A DNA stretch of 64,000 nt from Caulobacteraceae bacterium (lineage in GTDB: Bacteria; Pseudomonadota; Alphaproteobacteria; Caulobacterales; Caulobacteraceae), in NCBI GenBank assembly GCA_030446805.1, contig JAUJMO010000003.1:62001-126000 (forward strand), in the 5' to 3' direction. The notes beneath the pieces are model-generated. The model was not told where the DNA came from, made no database searches, and worked only from the letters and a program-made list of their open reading frames with translations. Each line of letters opens with the position of its first letter. Positions within the stretch are counted from its first letter, which is position 1. The translations under genes and the position numbers were made by a program. This document shows positions 38,514 through 59,133 of the stretch, in pieces.

Positions 38514-41060
38514 GTGAGCCGTTACGATCCAAAGACCGCCGAGCCGCATTGGCGCGCCGCCTGGGAGGAGGCCGACGTCTTCCGCACGCGTGGACCCGAC
38601 GAGCCGGGGGGCGAGAGACCCAAATATTACGTTCTTGAAATGTTCCCCTATCCCTCGGGGCGCATCCACATGGGCCATGTGCGCAACTACGCCATGGGCG
38701 ACGTGGTGGCGCGGTTCAAACGGGCGCAGGGTTTCAATGTGCTGCATCCCATGGGCTGGGACGCCTTCGGGCTGCCGGCCGAGAACGCCGCCATGGAGCG
38801 GAGGATCAACCCTAAGGTCTGGACCTATCAGAACATCGCCAGCATGCGCGAGCAGCTCAAACTGCTCGGGCTGTCTCTGGACTGGAGTCGCGAGTTCGCC
38901 ACCTGCGACCCGGAATACTACGGTAAGCAGCAGGCCTGGTTCCTGGACCTGCTGGCCCGCGACCTGGTCTATCGCCGCGAAGCCACGGTCAACTGGGATC
39001 CGGTCGACCAGACGGTGCTGGCCAACGAACAGGTGGTCGACGGGCGCGGCTGGCGCTCCGGCGCGGTGGTCGAAAAGCGCAAGCTCACCCAATGGTTCCT
39101 GCGTATCACCGACTACGCCGAGGACCTGATCAAGGGCCTGGAGACGCTGGATCGCTGGCCCGACAAGGTCCGCACCATGCAGGAGAACTGGATCGGCAAA
39201 AGCCGCGGCCTGCGTATGCGGTTCGGCTTCTCCGGAGAGGCCCCGGCCGGGTTCGAGGACGGCCTCGAGGTCTACACCACCCGGCCGGACACCCTGTTCG
39301 GCGCCAGCTTCCTGGCTATCGCGCCCGATCATCCGATTACGGAGGGACTGGCCGCCGGACGGCCGGACGTCGCCGAGTTCGTCGCCCGGGCCCGGGCCGG
39401 CGGGGGCTCCGAGGCTGAGCTGGAGACGGGCGAAAAGCTGGGCTTCGATACCGGTATGGCTGTGGTTCATCCGTTCACGTCCGATCTGGTTCTACCGGTC
39501 TGGATCGCGAATTTCGTGCTGATGGAGTACGGCACGGGAGCGATCTTCGGCTGCCCGGCGCACGATCAGCGCGACCTGGAGTTCGCCCGGAAATACGGCC
39601 TGCCCGTGCGTCCCGTGGTCTTGCCGCCCGGAGAAGACCCCGGGGCGTTCCACGTGGAACAGGACGCCTATGTCGGACCCGGTCGGATCTACCGGTCGGA
39701 CTTCCTGGACGGACTGGACATCGAGACCGCCAAGGCCGCGGCGGTCGCCCGGATCGAGGCCCAGGGGCAAGGGCAGGGGGCCACGGTCTACCGCCTGCGC
39801 GACTGGGGCGTCTCGCGCCAGCGGTACTGGGGCTGTCCGATCCCCATCGTCCACTGCGCGGATTGCGGGCCCGTGCCGGCCCCGAGAGACCAACTGCCCG
39901 TTGAGCTCCCGGAGGACGTCAGCTTCGACCGGCCGGGAAATCCGCTCCTTCGCCATCCGACGTGGCGGCACGTCAGCTGCCCTGAATGCAGCGGTCCCGG
40001 CGAGCGCGAGACCGACACCCTCGACACCTTCGTGGACAGTTCCTGGTACTTCGCCCGCTTCGCCGACACCCGGGCGGAGGCGCCGATCGGCCCCGCCGCG
40101 GACCACTGGATGCCGGTGGACCAGTACATCGGCGGTGTTGAGCATGCAGTGTTGCACCTGCTCTACGCCCGCTTCATCACGCGGGCGCTGTCGGACGCTG
40201 GCCAACTCTCCGTGCGCGAACCTTTCGCCGGCCTGTTCACTCAGGGCATGGTCACCCATGAGACGTTCAAGAGCTCCGTCGACGGACGCTGGCTTGAGCC
40301 GTCGGAGGTGGAGGCGCGCGGCGGCGTATGGCTGGAACGCGGGTCCGACCGCCCGGCCATACCGGGGGGCGTCGAGAAGATGTCGAAGTCCAAGAAAAAC
40401 GTCGTGGCTCCGGAAGGCGTGATCGAGAGCCACGGGGTGGACGCGGCCCGACTGTTCGTGCTGTCGGACTCCCCGCCCGAGCGGGACGTGCAATGGAGCG
40501 CTGCGGGCCTGGAGGGCGCATGGCGCTTCATGCACCGGGTCTGGGCCGAGTTCGACAACCTGGACGGCGGGACAGTGGACGGCGGCGATGAGCTTCGGCG
40601 CGCCACCCACAAGACCATCAAGGCGGTGACGGACGGGCTGGACCAGTTCCGGTTCAACACCGCCGTGGCGCGCCTGCACGAGTTCGTCGGCGTGCTGCGG
40701 AACTCTCCCGCGGCGGGGAGCGCGCGGCGGGAGGCCCTGACGGCCTTGGCCTGTCTGATTTCGCCCTTCACACCCCACTTGGCCGAGGCCTGCTGGGAGC
40801 GGTTGGGCCAGGCCGGCCTGGTCGCCGAGGCGGCCTGGCCGGCCTATGATCCGGCCCTGGCTCAGGACGAGGAGAAGATCCTGCCCGTTCAAATCAACGG
40901 CAAGCGCCGCGGCGAGATCCGCGCCGCGCCCGGGACGCCGCCCGACGCGGTCGAGCGGATCGCGCTGGAGGACGCCGAGGTTCAGCGTCACCTCCAGGGT
41001 ATGGCCATTCGCAAGGTGATCGTCGTACCCGATCGCATCATCAACATCGTCGCGGGATGA
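38514..41060 (+). CDS. leuS: Leucyl-tRNA synthetase
   Basis: 848 residues, GTG start. Class I aminoacyl-tRNA synthetase with HIGH-type [14 protein letters not shown] (about residues 46-59), the editing domain with [13 protein letters not shown], zinc-like cysteines HCADCGPVP and CPECSGPG, and EKMSKSKKN (about 621). The C-terminal [12 protein letters not shown] and [12 protein letters not shown] ends are normal. The codons at about 378-383 (FHVEQD) also spell a parS-like palindrome. The stop overlaps the lptE ATG. Confidence 0.97.
39646..39661. promoter_or_regulatory. parS-like palindrome inside leuS
   Basis: CGTTCCACGTGGAACA: 14 bases (39647-39660) form a perfect palindrome around CACGTG and differ from the ParB consensus TGTTTCACGTGAAACA at only a few positions. 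It sits about 3 kb from parB and 7 kb from the two intergenic parS sites. Being in coding sequence, it encodes FHVEQ in frame. Confidence 0.62.
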
Positions 41061-41569: not shown

Positions 41570-42612
41570 TCCTGGCCAAGGCGGCGGAAGCGGACCGCTT
41601 CGTCGCCAACCCTTCTCCGACCGTTCGCGCGGCGGTGATCCACGGACGGGACCGTAGCGGCGTTCGCGAGCGGGCCGACGGTCTGGCCGCCCGGCTGGTT
41701 CCAGACTTGGCTGACCCATTCGCCGTGGGGGTGATCGGGGAGGGAGACTCCGACGACGGCGGCCGACTGGCCGACGAGCTCTCGGCTCTGTCCCTGCTCG
41801 GCGGCGCTCGACTGGTTCGCGTTCAGCTGGCGGAGCGGGCGGCGGCCGAGCGCACGGCCGCCGAGGCGCTGAAAGCCCACCTAGAGGGCCGCTACAATCC
41901 CGAAGCCTTCCTCCTGATCGAAGCCGGCGCCCTGGCCAAGGACTCGGCGCTGAGGCGCGCGGCGGAGGCGTCCAAGATAGCCGCCTGTCTTCCCGTCTAC
42001 GACGACGAGCCTGGAGACCTCGTCCGCCTGGTGCGGGAAAGCCTCATGCGGGACGGCGTCGGCCTCACTTCCGAGGCCCTCGAGATGTTCACCGCGCGCC
42101 TACCGCGTGAACGCGGCGTGCTCCGCCAGGAGGTGGAGCGGCTGGTCCTGTACCTGGGTCCGGGCTCAGGCACGATGGGTGATCCCGAGCTCCTGTCTCG
42201 CCACCTCGGGGCGACCGTGGAGGCGTCTCTCTCCGATGCCGCGTCCGACGCTGCGGGCGGCCGGGTTCGCCCGGCTTTGGAAGGCCTTAACCGGGCTGCG
42301 GCGGAAGGGGAGGGTGGAGTGGCCGCCGTCCGGGTCATGGGGCAGCACCTCGCCCGGCTGAGGCGGATCCGCACGGCCGTGGACAACGGCGCCCAGGCGC
42401 AGGGGGCCGCCAAGGCCGCCGGCGTGTTCTGGAAGGCGGAACGCGAGGTCTTGCGGCAGCATCGAGCCTGGACGGCCGACGCTCTGGATCGCGCCCAGGC
42501 GGACACCGTAGCGGCGGACCGCGCCTGCAAAGCCGCCGGCGCGCCTGACGCCCTGTTGGCGGAACGGCTGTACCTGGGACTGGCGGCCCAGGCTCGACGG
42601 CTGGGCCTCTAG
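41566..42612 (+). CDS. holA: DNA polymerase III delta subunit
   Basis: 348 residues from GTG 41566, which overlaps the lptE stop as GTGA. Clamp-loader subunit that opens the beta ring. Shows AAVIHGRDRSGVRERADGL in the first ATPase-like strand, FLLIEAGAL, VYDDEPGDLVRLV, LPRERGVLRQEVERLVLYLG in separate helices, and a C-terminal collar LAERLYLGLAAQARRLGL. The stop shares a CTAG with the convergent parB stop. Confidence 0.93.
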   Translation: MILAKAAEADRFVANPSPTVRAAVIHGRDRSGVRERADGLAARLVPDLADPFAVGVIGEGDSDDGGRLADELSALSLLGGARLVRVQLAERAAAERTAAEALKAHLEGRYNPEAFLLIEAGALAKDSALRRAAEASKIAACLPVYDDEPGDLVRLVRESLMRDGVGLTSEALEMFTARLPRERGVLRQEVERLVLYLGPGSGTMGDPELLSRHLGATVEASLSDAASDAAGGRVRPALEGLNRAAAEGEGGVAAVRVMGQHLARLRRIRTAVDNGAQAQGAAKAAGVFWKAEREVLRQHRAWTADALDRAQADTVAADRACKAAGAPDALLAERLYLGLAAQARRLGL

Positions 42613-43514
42613 CGGGTCAAACGGCGGCAGAGATCGTCCAGCTGCTCCAGGGAGCGATAGTTCAAGCGCAGCTCGCCTTGCCCGCCCATGTCGCGAACCT
42701 CGACCGACACCCCCAGCACCTCCTCCAGGTCCTGCTCCAGCGCCTGGATGTCCGCATTGCGGGACGGCTTGGGCCCGCGCCCGGCCGGCTTGGGCTGTTC
42801 GTCCCTGCCCTTGGCCAGCGCCTCCGCCTGACGCACGTTCAGGCCGTCCTCGACGATCCGTCGCGCGAGGGTCGTCGGGTCATCGGTGGCGGCGATGGCG
42901 CGCGCATGTCCGGCGCTGAGCCGGCCCGACGCGAGGTGCTGCTGAACCTCATCCGGCAGTTGCAGCAGGCGGAGCATATTGGCGACATGGGCCCGGCTCT
43001 TGCCCACGACCTTGGCGACCGCCTCCTGGGTGCGTCCGAACCGATCCAGCAGCACCTTATAGCCTTGAGCCTCCTCCACGGCGTTCAGATCGGCCCGTTG
43101 CACGTTCTCCACGATGGCGACCTCGAGCACTTCCAGGTCGTCGAGCTCACGGATCAGCACGGGGACCGTCTTGAGCCCCGCCCGTTGCGCCGCCCGCCAC
43201 CGACGCTCGCCGGCGACGATCTGCCATTCGCCCTCCGCCCCGGGCGCCGGCCGCACCAGGATGGGCTGCAGCACGCCCTTCTCCCGGATGGAGTCGGCCA
43301 GCTCCTCCACCTCGTCCTCGCCAAAGTGCCGCCGCGGCTGCTCCGGATTGCGTCGCAGCAGTTCGATGGGCACTTCGGAGGTCAGGGCCGGTCCGGCCTC
43401 CGCCGGGATGTCGGCGGAGGGGGCCTGTGTGTCCTCATCCGCTTCACCGAGCAGCGCCGAGAGGCCCCGGCCCAGGCCCCGCGATCCCGCCGCGTTGTCC
43501 GCTCTTCGCGCCAC
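42609..43514 (-). CDS. parB: Chromosome-partitioning protein ParB
   Basis: 301 residues from GTG 43514, one base after the parA stop. CTP-dependent clamp that loads at parS. N-terminal GLGRGLSALLGE binds ParA; IREKGVLQPILVRP, GERRWRAAQRAGLKTVP (CTP-binding box) and VENVQRADLNAVEEA follow; the helix-turn-helix is GRTQEAVAKVVGKSRAHVANMLRLL (domain extent about 155-180); C-terminal dimer domain LRLNYRSLEQLDDLC. Three parS-like sites occur in this window. Confidence 0.96.
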   Translation of the reverse strand: MARRADNAAGSRGLGRGLSALLGEADEDTQAPSADIPAEAGPALTSEVPIELLRRNPEQPRRHFGEDEVEELADSIREKGVLQPILVRPAPGAEGEWQIVAGERRWRAAQRAGLKTVPVLIRELDDLEVLEVAIVENVQRADLNAVEEAQGYKVLLDRFGRTQEAVAKVVGKSRAHVANMLRLLQLPDEVQQHLASGRLSAGHARAIAATDDPTTLARRIVEDGLNVRQAEALAKGRDEQPKPAGRGPKPSRNADIQALEQDLEEVLGVSVEVRDMGGQGELRLNYRSLEQLDDLCRRLTR

Positions 43515-43515
43515 G

Positions 43516-44325
43516 TCAGGCCGCCTTTCGTGCACGTTCGCGAGAGATGACCTCCCGCGCGAGACTGACATAGGCCTGGCTCCCCGCCGAGCGCAGGTCG
43601 TAGATCAAGGCCGGCTTGCCGAAAGACGGCGCCTCGGCGATCCGCACGTTTCGCGGGATCACCGTCTGGTACACCTTGTCCCCGAAGTGCTCGCGGACGT
43701 CCTTGGCCACCAGGTCCGACAGGCTGTTGCGCTTATCGAACATGGTCAGGACCACCCCCTGGATCTCCAGATGCGGGTTCAGGCTGCCCCGCACCAACTC
43801 AACCGTGCGCATCAACTGGGTCAGGCCTTCCAGCGCGAAAAACTCGCACTGCAGGGGCACCAGCACCGCATTGGCGGCCGTCATGGCGTTGACCGTCAGC
43901 AGGTTCAGAGACGGTGGACAGTCCACCAGCACGTAGTTGTACGGCGAAGCCACGTCACGCAGCGAGGCCAGCGCGTCCCTAAGCCTGTAAGACCGGCGGG
44001 GCGCCTGACCCAGTTCGATCTCCACACCCGACAGCTCCGGGTCCGACGCGATCAGGTGCAATCCCGGAACGGCCGTCTCTACGATGGTGTCGACCGCCGG
44101 CTTACCGTCGACCACTACGTCGTAGATGGTGCTGCGCCGGGCGGCGCGCGGCACGCCCACACCGGTGGAGGCGTTGCCCTGCGGGTCGAGATCGACGATC
44201 AGCACCCGCTCGCCGATCGCGGCCAGAGCTGTGCCGAGATTGATGGCGGTCGTGGTCTTCCCGACGCCGCCCTTCTGATTGGCGACGGCGAGCACGCGGG
44301 TTGCGGGCGCGCTAGGCTGACGCAC
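43516..44325 (-). CDS. parA: Chromosome-partitioning ATPase ParA
   Basis: 269 residues from GTG 44325, chosen because GGAG precedes it and the conserved part starts VLAVANQKGGVGKTTTA; a longer frame reaches 44421 inside rsmG. Deviant Walker A (KGGVGKTTT), VDLDPQGNAS, DCPPSLNLLT and PLQCEFFALEGL identify the ParA/Soj branch. It binds DNA non-specifically with ATP and pulls ParB-parS complexes to the opposite pole. It overlaps rsmG by 14 bases. Confidence 0.96.
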   Translation of the reverse strand: MRQPSAPATRVLAVANQKGGVGKTTTAINLGTALAAIGERVLIVDLDPQGNASTGVGVPRAARRSTIYDVVVDGKPAVDTIVETAVPGLHLIASDPELSGVEIELGQAPRRSYRLRDALASLRDVASPYNYVLVDCPPSLNLLTVNAMTAANAVLVPLQCEFFALEGLTQLMRTVELVRGSLNPHLEIQGVVLTMFDKRNSLSDLVAKDVREHFGDKVYQTVIPRNVRIAEAPSFGKPALIYDLRSAGSQAYVSLAREVISRERARKAA

Positions 44326-44947
44326 GACGAACGCTCCAGATGCGGAGGATACGACCCTCGGGGTCGCTGAGACTCGGGGCCAAAGCATAGTCGAAGCGCC
44401 AGCTTTGCAAAGCCTCTTCAATCTCCTCCTGCACTCTTCTGCCCTTCAGAAACAGCCCGACCGCGCCCTTCAGCACGGCCTGGGTATGGTCCAGCAGGCG
44501 GGGCAGGGGAGCCACCGCCCGCGCCGTCACCACCTCCACGCGCGGGCCCGGTAGGGCTTCGATGCGGCCGGGAACGACCCGCGCGGGAAGCGAAAGTTCG
44601 TCCACGACCGCGCGCAGAAAGGCGCAACGTTTCTCCATGCTTTCAACCAGTTGGACCGTCATACCTGGACGGTCCCTCCCCAGTATGGCCAGAACGATCC
44701 CGGGCAGACCAGCCCCGGATCCCACGTCCAACCACTGCCGGGCCGTCGGTTCCAAGGCGCAAAGCTGGGCGGAGTCGTAGGCGTGTCGTCGCCAGAAGGC
44801 GTTCAAAGCCGACGGCCCCACCAGGTTCATCCGCGCGGACCCCGCCTCCAGCAAGGCACGATACCGAACCATGTCCGACAAGGCTCGGTCCGAGGCGCCC
44901 ACGGCTTGCTGGAACGCCTCGGCCCCGAAGCCGTCCAGATCCCTCAC
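44312..44947 (-). CDS. rsmG: 16S rRNA m7G527 methyltransferase
   Basis: 211 residues, GTG start overlapping the mnmG stop (GTGA). RsmG methylates G527 (E. coli numbering) of 16S rRNA; loss gives low-level streptomycin resistance. SAM site [17 protein letters not shown], then [17 protein letters not shown] and [15 protein letters not shown]. The order mnmG-rsmG-parA-parB is typical near bacterial origins. Confidence 0.95.
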
Positions 44948-46842: not shown

Positions 46843-46858
46843 TGTTCCACGTGAAACA
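46843..46858. promoter_or_regulatory. parS: parS site 1 (mnmE-mnmG gap)
   Basis: TGTTCCACGTGAAACA, one base from the consensus TGTTTCACGTGAAACA. It lies 40 bases upstream of the mnmG start and 3.3 kb from parB, the usual place for centromere sites. Confidence 0.9.
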
Positions 46859-46892: not shown

Positions 46893-46908
46893 TGTTCCAC
46901 GTGAAACA
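46893..46908. promoter_or_regulatory. parS: parS site 2 (end of mnmE)
   Basis: Identical to site 1 (TGTTCCACGTGAAACA), 50 bases away from it, about five helical turns, and two bases from the mnmE stop codon. The spacing would put both on the same face of the DNA. Confidence 0.9.
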
Positions 46909-50534: not shown

Positions 50535-51565
50535 GGGTTGACCGCTTTCTCTGAGGGGCACCTGCCCCAGCGGCGCGGGCACCAGCGACCGCCGTCCGCG
50601 TCGGCCACCCCGTCCCGCGGCAAGGCGGCGACCACCGCTCCAGCCAGGCTGTCGATGAAGGTTTGGGCCACGCCCACCGCCGGCGCCCGCAGATAGACGG
50701 GACAGCCCGACTCCCGCGCCAGGTGGCCGTATTCATGATCGAGCTCGACCAGGGTCTCCACATGCTCCGAGACAAAGGCGATCGGCGCCACCAGGAGGCC
50801 CCGGCCCTCCGCTCCGGCGCGCCGAATGGCGTCGTCGGTGGCCGGGCCGATCCATTTCAGCGGTCCCACGCGACTCTGGTAGCAGACCTCCACCTCCCAC
50901 CGCCCCGGCAGCCGTGCGGCGATGGCGGCTGCAGTGGCCTCCACCTGGGCCTGATAGGGATCGCCCGCCGCTATGACCTTCTCCGGCAGGCCGTGCGCGG
51001 AAAGGAGCAGCTTGACGGGTGGGCGGCCGGCGTTCTCCCAGGTTCGCAGAATGGCTTGGACGTAGCCGTCCACGAACCCCTCCGCTTCCGGATAGCAGCA
51101 GATGGTCCGCGACCCTCCCGGGCCCTTGTAGGCGGCCCGCCAAGCCTTGAGCGAGGAGCCGGAGGTGGTGGTCGAGAACTGTGGGTAGAGCGGCAGCAGC
51201 ACGATCTCATCGGGCCCGAAATCCTCCACCTCGCGCGCGGCGTCCTGGGTGAGCGGCGTCCAGTAGCGCATGGCCACAAAGCACCGCGCTTCCACCCCGG
51301 GAAGCCGCTCGGACAGAGTCGCCTCCAGCGAGAGGGCCTGCGCCCGCGTTTCGCCCAACAGGGGCGAACCGCCCCCCATGACCGCGTAATTGGCCCGCGC
51401 CGTCTTGGCCCGGGTGGTGGAGATCAGGGCCGCCAGCGGTGTCCGCGCAATCCCTGGCAGACCGATGATGGCGGGATCGTTGAACAGGTTGAACAGGAAG
51501 GGACGCACCGACTCCGGTCCGTCCGGCCCGCCAAGGTTGAACAACACCACCGCAAGCCGCTTCAA
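50531..51565 (-). CDS. hemH: Ferrochelatase
   Basis: 344 residues from TTG 51565, overlapping the hemE stop as TTGA. Inserts iron into protoporphyrin IX. VVLFNLGGPDGPESVRPFLFN, YPQFSTTTSGSS, SAHGLPEKVI with the catalytic His, YQSRVGPLKWIGP and APIAFVSEHVETLVELD with the conserved Glu. The tail has two cysteines (RWCPRRWGRC); some bacterial ferrochelatases, including that of Caulobacter, hold a 2Fe-2S cluster near the C-terminus, so a cluster is possible here. Confidence 0.95.
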   Translation of the reverse strand: MKRLAVVLFNLGGPDGPESVRPFLFNLFNDPAIIGLPGIARTPLAALISTTRAKTARANYAVMGGGSPLLGETRAQALSLEATLSERLPGVEARCFVAMRYWTPLTQDAAREVEDFGPDEIVLLPLYPQFSTTTSGSSLKAWRAAYKGPGGSRTICCYPEAEGFVDGYVQAILRTWENAGRPPVKLLLSAHGLPEKVIAAGDPYQAQVEATAAAIAARLPGRWEVEVCYQSRVGPLKWIGPATDDAIRRAGAEGRGLLVAPIAFVSEHVETLVELDHEYGHLARESGCPVYLRAPAVGVAQTFIDSLAGAVVAALPRDGVADADGGRWCPRRWGRCPSEKAVNP

Positions 51566-52593
51566 ATCCGCACTCCGGTGACCCGCTCCAGCACGCGCTC
51601 TACGTGGGGAATGGGCGTGTCCGGCAGGATGCCGTGACCCAGATTGAAGATGTAGGGGCCTCCACCCCATTGCTCCAACAGCTGGTCGACGCGCTGGTCA
51701 AGCAGCGGCCCGCCGGCGCGCAGCAAGAGCGGATCCAGCGCGCCCTGGATGGTGGCCAGCTTCTGCACCCGCCGGCCCTGCTCGGCCGTGGCCTGGGTGT
51801 CGAGCGCCACGGCTTGGACGAACCGCTGGGCGGCGTAGGTCTCCACCAGAGCGCCTGCCCCGCGCGGAAACCCGATCACGGGCACGCTCACGCCCAGCTC
51901 GCGCAGCCGGGCGACGATGCGCCGGTGCGGTTCGATCACGAGGCGCGGAAAGACGTCCTCCGGGATCGCCTCCGCCCAACTTTCGAAAAGCTTGAGCACC
52001 TGGGCGCCCGCGCGCGCCTGCATGGCCAGGTAGTCGGCGGTGGCCTCGACAAGCACTTGGAGGAGGGCGTCCACCAGTTCGGGTTCGCGATAGGCCAGGG
52101 TCTTGGCTTGCGCCTTGTCCCGGCTGCCTCCGCCTTCGATCATATAGGTCAGCACCGTCCAGGGCGCGCCGGCGAACCCGATCAAAGCGCGCTCCGGCTC
52201 CAGGGCGGCCCGCACCCGAGACAGCGTTTCTCCAATGGCCGACAGCCGTCGTGTCGCACCCTCCACGCCCCCCTGCAGGGTCTCCAGCGAGGGCAGGGGC
52301 CCCAGCCTCGGCCCTTCGCCCTTTTCAAACCAGACGGCCTGTCCCAGGGCCCGGGGGATCAGCAGGATGTCCGCGAACACGATCGCCGCGTCATAGGGAA
52401 ACCGCCGCATCGGCTGGAGCGTGACCTCCGCGGCCGCTTCCGGATTATGGCAAAAGGCGATGAAGTCCGGCTGCTGGGCGCGAACGGCCCGATACTCCGG
52501 CAAATACCGACCAGCCTGCCGCATGAACCAGACCGGAGGGCGGGCCAGGGTTTCGCCGTTCAGGGCTCGAAGGAGGAGGGGCTGGGACGCCAT
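51562..52593 (-). CDS. hemE: Uroporphyrinogen decarboxylase
   Basis: 343 residues. Decarboxylates the four acetate groups of uroporphyrinogen III. PPVWFMRQAGRYLPEYR with the substrate-binding Arg pair, YDAAIVFADILLIP with the key Asp, GFAGAPWTVLTYMIEGGGS, KLFESWAE and FNLGHGILPDTP are all present. First gene of hemE-hemH-hemJ and the left border of the putative replication origin. Confidence 0.97.
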   Translation of the reverse strand: MASQPLLLRALNGETLARPPVWFMRQAGRYLPEYRAVRAQQPDFIAFCHNPEAAAEVTLQPMRRFPYDAAIVFADILLIPRALGQAVWFEKGEGPRLGPLPSLETLQGGVEGATRRLSAIGETLSRVRAALEPERALIGFAGAPWTVLTYMIEGGGSRDKAQAKTLAYREPELVDALLQVLVEATADYLAMQARAGAQVLKLFESWAEAIPEDVFPRLVIEPHRRIVARLRELGVSVPVIGFPRGAGALVETYAAQRFVQAVALDTQATAEQGRRVQKLATIQGALDPLLLRAGGPLLDQRVDQLLEQWGGGPYIFNLGHGILPDTPIPHVERVLERVTGVRI

Positions 52594-52782
52594 GGCGTGC
52601 TTAGAGCGGCCACCCGACGATCCATCAACCCGTCCCTTCAGACTTAAGAATAAGAAGGTTTGGGGAAGAAGGTTGGGCGGTTGAGATCGGGGACAATCAC
52701 CTCGGCGCCCCGGCTCCCCACCGTCTCATCCCCAAGCGGCGCTCGCCGCACAAGCGTGGCGGCGCCAGTGCGGCCGTTCCTG

Positions 52783-52797
52783 TTAACACTTTGTTAA
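52783..52797. promoter_or_regulatory. CtrA-binding box a
   Basis: TTAACACTTTGTTAA, a perfect TTAA-N7-TTAA match to the CtrA consensus. In Caulobacter, phosphorylated CtrA bound at such boxes in Cori blocks initiation in swarmer cells. Confidence 0.82.
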
Positions 52798-52832
52798 CCT
52801 CTCGGATTCGGGGCGGCTTTTCGCAACCGTCG

Positions 52833-52847
52833 TTAGGGATATGTTAA
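52833..52847. promoter_or_regulatory. CtrA-binding box b (one mismatch)
   Basis: TTAGGGATATGTTAA, TTAG-N7-TTAA. Its first base is 50 bases after that of box a, so the two would lie on nearly the same face of the helix; the GATTC methylation site falls between them. Confidence 0.65.
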
Positions 52848-53049
52848 TGATTGCGGCAAGGCGGCCATAGTTCTCGACAAGCTTGCCTCGGCGGAAGGGT
52901 TGGGCCCGGAAGGCTCGGGATCGATCGCCTTGGAACCGGGTCGTTGTCCCCAAGGACTTGGCATTTCCCTGCGAAGCCTGTCTTGTTCCCCAGTGCGCGT
53001 GCGGCTGTCCCCGCCGCGGTCCCCAGGCATCCATCATCCGCCCACCATC

Positions 53050-53880
53050 ATGACGCCGCTGGCCACCTACTTTCATGTCCACCTGGTGTCGGACTCCACG
53101 GGCGAGACCCTGAACGCCATGGCCAAGGCGGTGTGCGCCCGCTTCGACGCGGTGCTGCCCATCGAGCACGTCTACGCCCTGGTACGCTCTCGGCGTCAGC
53201 TCGACCGGGTGCTGCGGGAGATCGAGAACGCGCCGGGCATGGTCCTGCACACCATCGTGGACAAGGATCTGCGTGCGGCGCTGGAGACGGGCTGCCGCGC
53301 GCTCGACATGCCCTGCGTGGCCGCGCTCGATCCCCTGGTCGCCTCCCTGGCCCGGTATCTGGGCGCGGCCATCTCCACCCGCGTAGGCGCCCAGCACGCC
53401 CTGGACCACGAGTATTTCAACCGGATCGAAGCGCTGGATTTCGCTATCGCCCACGACGATGGCCAGGGCTTCAACGACCTGGAGGCCGCAGACGTCATCC
53501 TGGTGGGTGTGAGCCGGACCTCCAAGACGCCCACCAGCATCTATCTCGCCCATCGCGGCGTACGCTCGGCCAATGTGCCGCTGGTGCCGGGTTCCGAACC
53601 GCCGCCGCAGCTGTTCGAGGTGAAACGGCCGCTGGTCGTGGGCCTGACGGTGTCGCCTGACCGCTTGGTGCAGATCCGGCGCAACCGGCTGATCGGACTC
53701 CGGGAAGGCCGCGACACCGACTATGTGGAGACGGACGCTGTGCGGGAGGAGACCGTGCGGGCGCGGCGCCTCTTCGAACGCCAAGGATGGCCGGTCATCG
53801 ACGTCACGCGCCGCTCGGTCGAGGAGACCGCCGCGGCCGTGCTGAACCTGCTGCAGGCCCGCAAGGCGGACGCGGCATGA
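53050..53880 (+). CDS. ppsR: Pyruvate phosphate dikinase / PEP synthase regulatory protein (DUF299)
   Basis: 276 residues from ATG 53050. Bifunctional ADP-dependent kinase and phosphate-dependent phosphorylase acting on PPDK or PEP synthase. N-terminal FHVHLVSDSTGETLNAMA, the P-loop-like GVSRTSKTPTSIYLA (about 155-169), LVPGSEPPPQLF and LIGLREGRDTDYV are characteristic. Right neighbour of the origin; in Caulobacter it is the first gene of the chromosome numbering. It starts a coupled series with maf, aroE and coaE. Confidence 0.94.
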   Translation: MTPLATYFHVHLVSDSTGETLNAMAKAVCARFDAVLPIEHVYALVRSRRQLDRVLREIENAPGMVLHTIVDKDLRAALETGCRALDMPCVAALDPLVASLARYLGAAISTRVGAQHALDHEYFNRIEALDFAIAHDDGQGFNDLEAADVILVGVSRTSKTPTSIYLAHRGVRSANVPLVPGSEPPPQLFEVKRPLVVGLTVSPDRLVQIRRNRLIGLREGRDTDYVETDAVREETVRARRLFERQGWPVIDVTRRSVEETAAAVLNLLQARKADAA

Positions 53881-57394: not shown

Positions 57395-58012
57395 TTGGAA
57401 GCGCTGTCACTCGTCTTTTTCGCCGCCTTGGCCGCCGTGGTGCTGTTCCAGCTCTACTCGGTGTTGGGCCGGCGCGTGGGTCGGCAGCCGGAGGACGCGG
57501 CCGCCGAGGAAGCGCGCCGTCCCGCCGTGGAAGCGCCGACTCGTCGCGCCGAGGAGGTTCACGCGCCGGAAGCCGCCGTGGAGCCCCTGGCCGCGCTCCG
57601 CGCCCGCGACCCGTCCTTCGAGCCGGCGGCCTTTCTTCAAGGGGCGCGCGGCGCCTATGAAATGATCGTCACCGCCTTCGCTGCGGGCGATCGCGACACC
57701 CTGCGAGGCCTGCTGACCCTGGGCGTGTTCCAGACCTTCGAGGCCGCCATCGCCGGTCGCGAGGCGGAAGGGCGCACCGAGCGGGTGGAGTTCCTGCAGC
57801 CCACGCGCGCGGACTTCGAGCATGTGGAGCTTCAGGGCGACCTGGCCCGCGTCAAGGTCCGGTTCCTGTCCGAGTTCCGCACCCGCTCCAAGGGCCCGGA
57901 AGGCGAGGCCGTCGACGACCGCCGCACCGCCGAGGTCTGGACGTTCGAGCGCCGCATCGGCGCCCGTGATCCGAACTGGGCTCTGGCCCAGGTGGAGCCC
58001 GCGGAGTCCTGA
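57395..58012 (+). CDS. Tim44-like domain protein
   Basis: 205 residues, TTG start (no nearby ATG or GTG). One N-terminal helix (ALSLVFFAALAAVVLFQLYSVLG region), an acidic, Ala-rich linker and a Tim44-like domain (FLQGARGAYEMIVTAFAAGDRDTLRGLL, FLSEFRTRSKG, RRTAEVWTFERR). It is related to the mitochondrial import motor subunit; the Caulobacter homologue is called TimA. The stop overlaps the mltA start (TGATG). Confidence 0.9.
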   Translation: MEALSLVFFAALAAVVLFQLYSVLGRRVGRQPEDAAAEEARRPAVEAPTRRAEEVHAPEAAVEPLAALRARDPSFEPAAFLQGARGAYEMIVTAFAAGDRDTLRGLLTLGVFQTFEAAIAGREAEGRTERVEFLQPTRADFEHVELQGDLARVKVRFLSEFRTRSKGPEGEAVDDRRTAEVWTFERRIGARDPNWALAQVEPAES

Positions 58013-59133
58013 TGCGCGGACGGCGGCTTGCGAGCCTGGCCGCGCTCGCGGCCGCCGGATTCGCCTGGGCCTGCGCGCCGCTTCCCGCACCGCCGCCGCC
58101 GGGCCCCATCTTAGCGCAGCCGCAGCCGCAGCCACAGCCGCAGCCGCAGCCGCAGCCGTACCCGCCCGCGCAAGCCGCGCCGACGCTGGTCGTTCGGGGC
58201 TTGCCGCTCTCCAGCCTGTCCGGCTGGGCGGAGGAGGACCATCGCGCGGCTTTTGACGCCTTCCGGACCACCTGCGCCCGCACACCCGCACTGATCGCCG
58301 CCTGCGCCAGCGCCCGACAGGCTGGCCCGCTGGCCCCGGAGGCCGCCAAGGCCTGGCTCGAGGCGCGCTTCGTGGCCCAGCCGGTCCAGCCGGACGCGGG
58401 CGCGACGGGGGTGCTCACCGGCTACTTCGCTCCGGAATATCCGGCGCGAGACCGCCCGGATGCGGAGTTCAGCGCAGCGATGCGTCCTCGCCCGGCCGAC
58501 CTCGTCACCGGCCAGCCTTACCGGCCGCGCGCCCAGATCGAGCAGACACCGTCGGAGGCGCTGGCCTGGATGCGGCCGGAGGAGCTGTTCTTTCTGCAGA
58601 TCCAGGGTTCGGGCACGCTCGCGTTCCCGGACGGACGGCGTCTGCGGGCCGTCTATGCGGCCGACAACGGCCTGCCGTTCGTGGGTGTGGCCCGCGTGAT
58701 GCGCGCTCAGGGGCTCCTCGCCGACAACCAGACCTCCGGCGAGGCGATCCGGGGCTGGCTGGCCGCCCATCGGGGACCGGAAGCGCAGGCCGTGATGAAC
58801 GCGAACCCGCGCTACATTTTCTTCGCCGTGCGTCCTGACGACGGTGGGGAGCCGGCCGGCGCAGCCGGAATTCCGCTGCCGCCGGGTCGCGCCGTGGCCA
58901 TCGATCCCAGCCGCCACGCCTATGGCGAACTGTTCTGGATCGAGGCCGAAGCGCCCGCCCTATCCGGCGCCTTTCCCCGTTACCGCCGTCTTGTAAGCGC
59001 GCTGGACACCGGGGGCGCCATCAAGGGCTCCGTTCGCGCCGACCTTTATCTCGGCCGCGGCGCGGCCGCGGGGACGGAGGCCGGCCGCATCCGGCACCAG
59101 CTGCGCATGTGGCGCCTCGTTCCGCGGGGCTGA
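58012..59133 (+). CDS. mltA: Membrane-bound lytic murein transglycosylase A
   Basis: 373 residues. Secretion signal with a poor lipobox (FAWAC), then a Pro-Gln repeat linker encoded by hexamers, then the MltA domain (GVLTGYFAPEYPARD, RAQIEQTPSEALAWM, FFLQIQGSGTLAFPDG) and the 3D domain (PPGRAVAIDPSRHAYGE, ALDTGGAIKGSVRADLYLG) with the catalytic Asp region. Cuts peptidoglycan with formation of 1,6-anhydro-muramic acid. Grouped with the Tim44-like and Smr genes. Confidence 0.94.
   Translation: MRGRRLASLAALAAAGFAWACAPLPAPPPPGPILAQPQPQPQPQPQPQPYPPAQAAPTLVVRGLPLSSLSGWAEEDHRAAFDAFRTTCARTPALIAACASARQAGPLAPEAAKAWLEARFVAQPVQPDAGATGVLTGYFAPEYPARDRPDAEFSAAMRPRPADLVTGQPYRPRAQIEQTPSEALAWMRPEELFFLQIQGSGTLAFPDGRRLRAVYAADNGLPFVGVARVMRAQGLLADNQTSGEAIRGWLAAHRGPEAQAVMNANPRYIFFAVRPDDGGEPAGAAGIPLPPGRAVAIDPSRHAYGELFWIEAEAPALSGAFPRYRRLVSALDTGGAIKGSVRADLYLGRGAAAGTEAGRIRHQLRMWRLVPRG
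58117..58158 (+). repeat. CAGCCG hexamer tandem repeat in mltA
   Basis: Seven units of CAGCCG, the third being CAGCCA, encoding a QP repeat linker between lipoprotein signal and catalytic domain. Unit size keeps the frame, so changes in copy number would only alter tether length. Confidence 0.9.

Follow-up and report, generated by a model that had tools for sequence, protein, structure and literature searches.

A putative chromosomal origin between hemE and a DUF299 gene

Where does the chromosome of this Caulobacteraceae bacterium begin to replicate, and does the site resemble Cori, the origin of Caulobacter crescentus? The borders of Cori are the hemE and DUF299 genes. In the stretch of DNA analyzed here (64 kb of contig C5, hereafter the window), the same two genes enclose an intergenic gap of 456 bp, to which no strand is assigned (positions 52594–53049): hemE, encoding uroporphyrinogen decarboxylase (TIGR01464), forms the left border on the minus strand (51562–52593), and a gene for a DUF299/PpsR-type regulator (NF003742) forms the right border on the plus strand (53050–53880). 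A first-pass annotation had proposed this gap as a cell-cycle-controlled origin; the gene order and gap coordinates that it gave check out, and all of the motifs that it named for the gap were found where it had placed them.

Judged from sequence, it is highly probable that the 52594–53049 region is the chromosomal origin of replication of this bacterium, and that it is of the Cori type. The assignment is backed by synteny, a neighboring parS/parAB locus, a cluster of W-boxes, CtrA boxes present family-wide and four encoded regulators, with further backing from a dif/KOPS terminus that would lie approximately opposite under the inferred contig order. Cori and the gap have in common the hemE/DUF299 borders, TCCCCA W-boxes, TTAA-N7-TTAA CtrA boxes, an AT-rich stretch and, possibly, a central CtrA box overlapping an IHF-like site, while parS/parAB close by and the same regulators are common to Cori and this genome; the site classes of Cori match those described below (PMC4468827, PMC4285127, PMC8959179). 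The putative oriC is a good but ordinary example, built like Cori, and its position gives a putative origin for an uncultured genus of Caulobacteraceae.

A central pair of CtrA boxes

A perfect CtrA box (TTAACACTTTGTTAA, 52783–52797, plus strand) is followed exactly 50 bp on by a near-perfect box with one mismatch (TTAGGGATATGTTAA, 52833–52847, plus strand), which aligns with a box conserved across the family. The perfect box is the sole one in the window and one of seven in 2.74 Mb; all genome-wide motif counts cover 2.74 of 3.04 Mb, that is, the genome apart from C4:320001–613000. When the gap was shuffled 5000 times with dinucleotides preserved, a perfect box arose with P = 0.0008 and a pair of boxes, each with no more than one mismatch, with P = 0.0012. 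Overlapping the 52783–52797 box, the sequence TAACACTTTGTT matches the Cori IHF site TAACGCTCTGTT at 10 of 12 positions, a resemblance that is not independent of the CtrA box itself. The 52783–52797 box probably corresponds to one of the central CtrA boxes of Cori. Because the spacing between the two boxes (50 bp, versus 48 bp in the Caulobacter loci L036 and L037) and the IHF-like overlap agree, the two boxes appear to correspond to the Caulobacter central pair; by the same sequence comparison, the outer Caulobacter boxes are missing from the putative oriC.

A single GATTC, the CcrM target, does lie between the two CtrA boxes (52805–52809, plus strand), as had been pointed out, but its presence is not above chance (P ~0.45): with GANTC occurring at 1.3 per kb in the genome, 45% of such gaps would be expected to hold at least one, so that a lone site is uninformative. 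Genome-wide, GANTC is depleted to 0.71 of expectation.

W-boxes and an AT-rich stretch

The six exact TCCCCA W-boxes first reported for the gap are borne out. They lie at 52661–52666 on the minus strand and at 52715–52720, 52729–52734, 52947–52952, 52987–52992 and 53020–53025 on the plus strand, and two W-like TCCCCG boxes are additional to them, one at 52688–52693 (minus strand; a family-conserved position, column GgGGA) and the other at 53008–53013 (plus strand). Not one of 5000 dinucleotide shuffles of the gap contained six W-boxes (mean 0.42, maximum 4), and the gap alone, in 2.74 Mb of genome, holds at least five TCCCCA within 456 bp. Cori has five exact W-boxes.

No DnaA 9-mer with at most one mismatch occurs in the gap, the nearest match being the W-box at 52729–52734 (TCATCCCCA) with two mismatches, and TCCACA is absent from the gap. 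The G-box TGATCCACA of C. crescentus Cori is not present here (best match, two mismatches), and the position of the right-hand Cori G-box is occupied by a W-box: the right edge of the gap reads CGGTCCCCAGG, with TCCCCAGG at 53020–53025, where Caulobacter relatives carry the G-box TGATCCACAGG.

The least stable 40-bp stretch of the gap, with 60% AT, lies at 52636–52676 and ranks 29th of 63960 start positions in the window by nearest-neighbour stability; we regard it as a candidate DNA unwinding element. A purine-rich block (GGAGGNAGNAGGTNGG-like) followed by GGGGA, spanning 52656–52690, is conserved across Caulobacteraceae gaps and may be a hemE leader or belong to the unwinding region. A scan against Rfam returned no match for the gap, and its right half offers no support for an equivalent of CcnA, a non-coding RNA of Cori: folding there is weaker than that of shuffles (z = +2.1). 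The GC-rich part of the gap at ~52739–52776 has a 38-bp match (84%) at C1:1499560–1499597, which is probably due to chance or to a small repeat.

CtrA boxes are family-wide and variable in number

From 65 loci, either the corresponding gap or as much as 700 bp of sequence upstream of the DUF299 gene was extracted, and CtrA and W-box statistics were computed on 46 distinct Caulobacteraceae sequences, each a hemE-DUF299 or an upstream gap. Other origins of the family (Phenylobacterium, Brevundimonas and other genera; L023–L050, L182–L202) share the location of the gap and, as here, have CtrA boxes in all cases and W-boxes in most. If up to one mismatch is allowed, every one of the 46 gaps contains a CtrA box (4.0 expected from shuffles); in total there are 110 such boxes, where 4.7 would be expected, and 93 W-boxes, where 23 would be expected. 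The central CtrA box is conserved in the gap alignment; from a separate five-sequence alignment, the L194 row was excluded.

The first-pass annotation had read the low number of CtrA boxes, two here as opposed to five in Cori, as a hint that control may differ. This argument turned out to be weak. Across 35 complete gaps, one box is found in 6, two in 15, three in 10, four in 2 and six in 2; since two boxes occur in the family more often than any other number, the low count is no sign of unusual control, and since relatives vary from one to six, five sites are a trait of C. crescentus rather than of the Cori type. Control of the origin by CtrA seems to be general across Caulobacteraceae, with the number of sites free to vary.

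The absence of any DnaA 9-mer within one mismatch likewise recurs in 14 of the 46 relatives (about a third), which makes the gap lacking a G-box one instance of a recurring variant, not a unique case, and implies that G-boxes do not define the Cori type. The six W-boxes are the family's highest count (0–5 in other Caulobacteraceae gaps). In a second species of the genus (L022/L181), 14 of 456 bases differ in the gap, none of them in a CtrA box or W-box, an observation that is suggestive only, because the boxes cover ~12% of the gap.

Segregation locus, regulators and terminus

To the left of the gap lies a chromosome segregation locus. Two identical parS-like sites, TGTTCCACGTGAAACA, with one mismatch to TGTTTCACGTGAAACA, are placed 50 bp apart between mnmG and mnmE (46843–46858 and 46893–46908; no strand assigned), 5.7 kb left of the gap, and parB and parA follow at 42609–44421 on the minus strand, such that the parAB genes and the parS pair together lie 5.7–10 kb left of the gap. 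A weaker parS-like site was seen at 39646.

The genome encodes DnaA, CtrA, GcrA and, within C4:320001–613000, a RAMA-domain methylase of the CcrM type. CtrA is 93.5% identical over 201 residues to a C. crescentus CtrA sequence, and the DNA-contact motif of DnaA, DHTTVLHA, is intact.

The terminus was approached through dif and KOPS. No perfect dif core was found; a mismatch scan returned a single dif-like site, at C1:476.4 kb, and the KOPS-like GGGNAGGG switches strand at C1:475.4 kb. The polarity of GGGNAGGG is strong on this terminus-bearing contig, and KOPS polarity suggests the contig order C1-end, C2, C5, C4, C6, C1-start. If that order is right, the replication arms from the gap measure ~1.45 and 1.58 Mb, and the terminus would lie roughly opposite the gap.

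Could the active origin lie elsewhere?

A GC-skew inflection away from the gap had been named beforehand as a result that would refute the origin call, and the observed minimum is displaced: cumulative GC skew on C5 is lowest at 163 kb, or at 157 kb when four-fold sites with a correction for gene strand are used, which is 42–48 kb right of the gap, and skew is negative throughout the gap. This raises the alternative of an active origin lying to the right by 40–70 kb, close to the skew minimum (C5:157–163 kb) or dnaA (C5:184428–185786, outside the window and 70 kb from the gap), with the gap a relic whose boxes have been kept for hemE regulation. A midpoint calculation from KOPS also points to about C5:186 kb; its assumptions of contig order and arm symmetry are loose.

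We consider this alternative very unlikely. Neither a cluster of at least five W-boxes nor a cluster of DnaA-like boxes was found near C5:157–186 kb, and parS adjoins the gap. The displaced minimum is given little weight because skew sign is a poor guide in those regions where dif/KOPS identify the replication arm: corrected skew has the expected sign in 13 of 23 and 37 of 59 bins of the two C1 arms (20-kb bins; ~60%). Whether raw or taken at corrected four-fold sites, skew is too noisy in this genome for positioning the origin. Nor does dnaA serve as a marker of the origin, because its distance from DUF299 varies from 58 to 415 kb in eight relatives with both genes on one contig (in one closed genome, measured around its ends); the distance of dnaA, like the 456-bp length of the gap, is a difference from Cori. 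That the gap serves only as a promoter region under CtrA and DnaA regulation, from which hemE and the DUF299 gene are divergently transcribed, is hardly credible: CtrA boxes regulate promoters too, and hemE transcription in Cori is tied to the origin (PMC8959179), but a promoter has no need for six W-boxes that form the sole such cluster found in 2.74 Mb, an origin would agree with the conserved parS and gene order, and a search (a weak test) found no sigma-70-like promoter.

GC skew forms a patchwork of sign changes on C1, C4 and C5, presumably from inversions, and the genome seems to be heavily rearranged. Three DnaA-like boxes at C1:1494964 were set aside as probably belonging to an rRNA operon, with masked bases and a tRNA-Ala in the region.

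A model for initiation at the putative oriC

By analogy with Caulobacter work, a model for the putative Cori-type origin can be proposed. DnaA-ATP would load cooperatively on two groups of weak W-boxes (52661–52734 and 52947–53025) and would melt the AT-rich stretch at 52636–52676 beside hemE. Phosphorylated CtrA, as at Cori, would bind the central boxes at 52783 and 52833 and occlude the middle of the DnaA array, so that the origin would stay silent as long as CtrA is there; at the first CtrA box (52783), IHF may act as a competitor. The parS/parAB locus 5.7–10 kb to the left would capture new origins for segregation.

Published work describes Cori as tuned toward a low affinity for DnaA (PMC4468827), and its W-boxes are reported to require G-boxes for occupancy (PMC4468827). 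We tentatively raise a conjecture that is more doubtful than probable: the origin of this genus may have lost every moderate-affinity DnaA 9-mer and come to depend on very weak W-boxes in an expanded array. At its right edge, a W-box would have taken the place of the Caulobacter G-box (TCCACAGG to TCCCCAGG), with the DnaA contact motif unchanged. If true, weak sites by themselves would be enough for Cori-type origins to function. The recurrence of W-box-rich origins without a G-box bears on the low-affinity tuning described for Cori (PMC4468827).

Elsewhere in the window, a gene that is MltA-like by appearance (58012–59133) contains a run of QP dipeptide repeats at 58110–58170.
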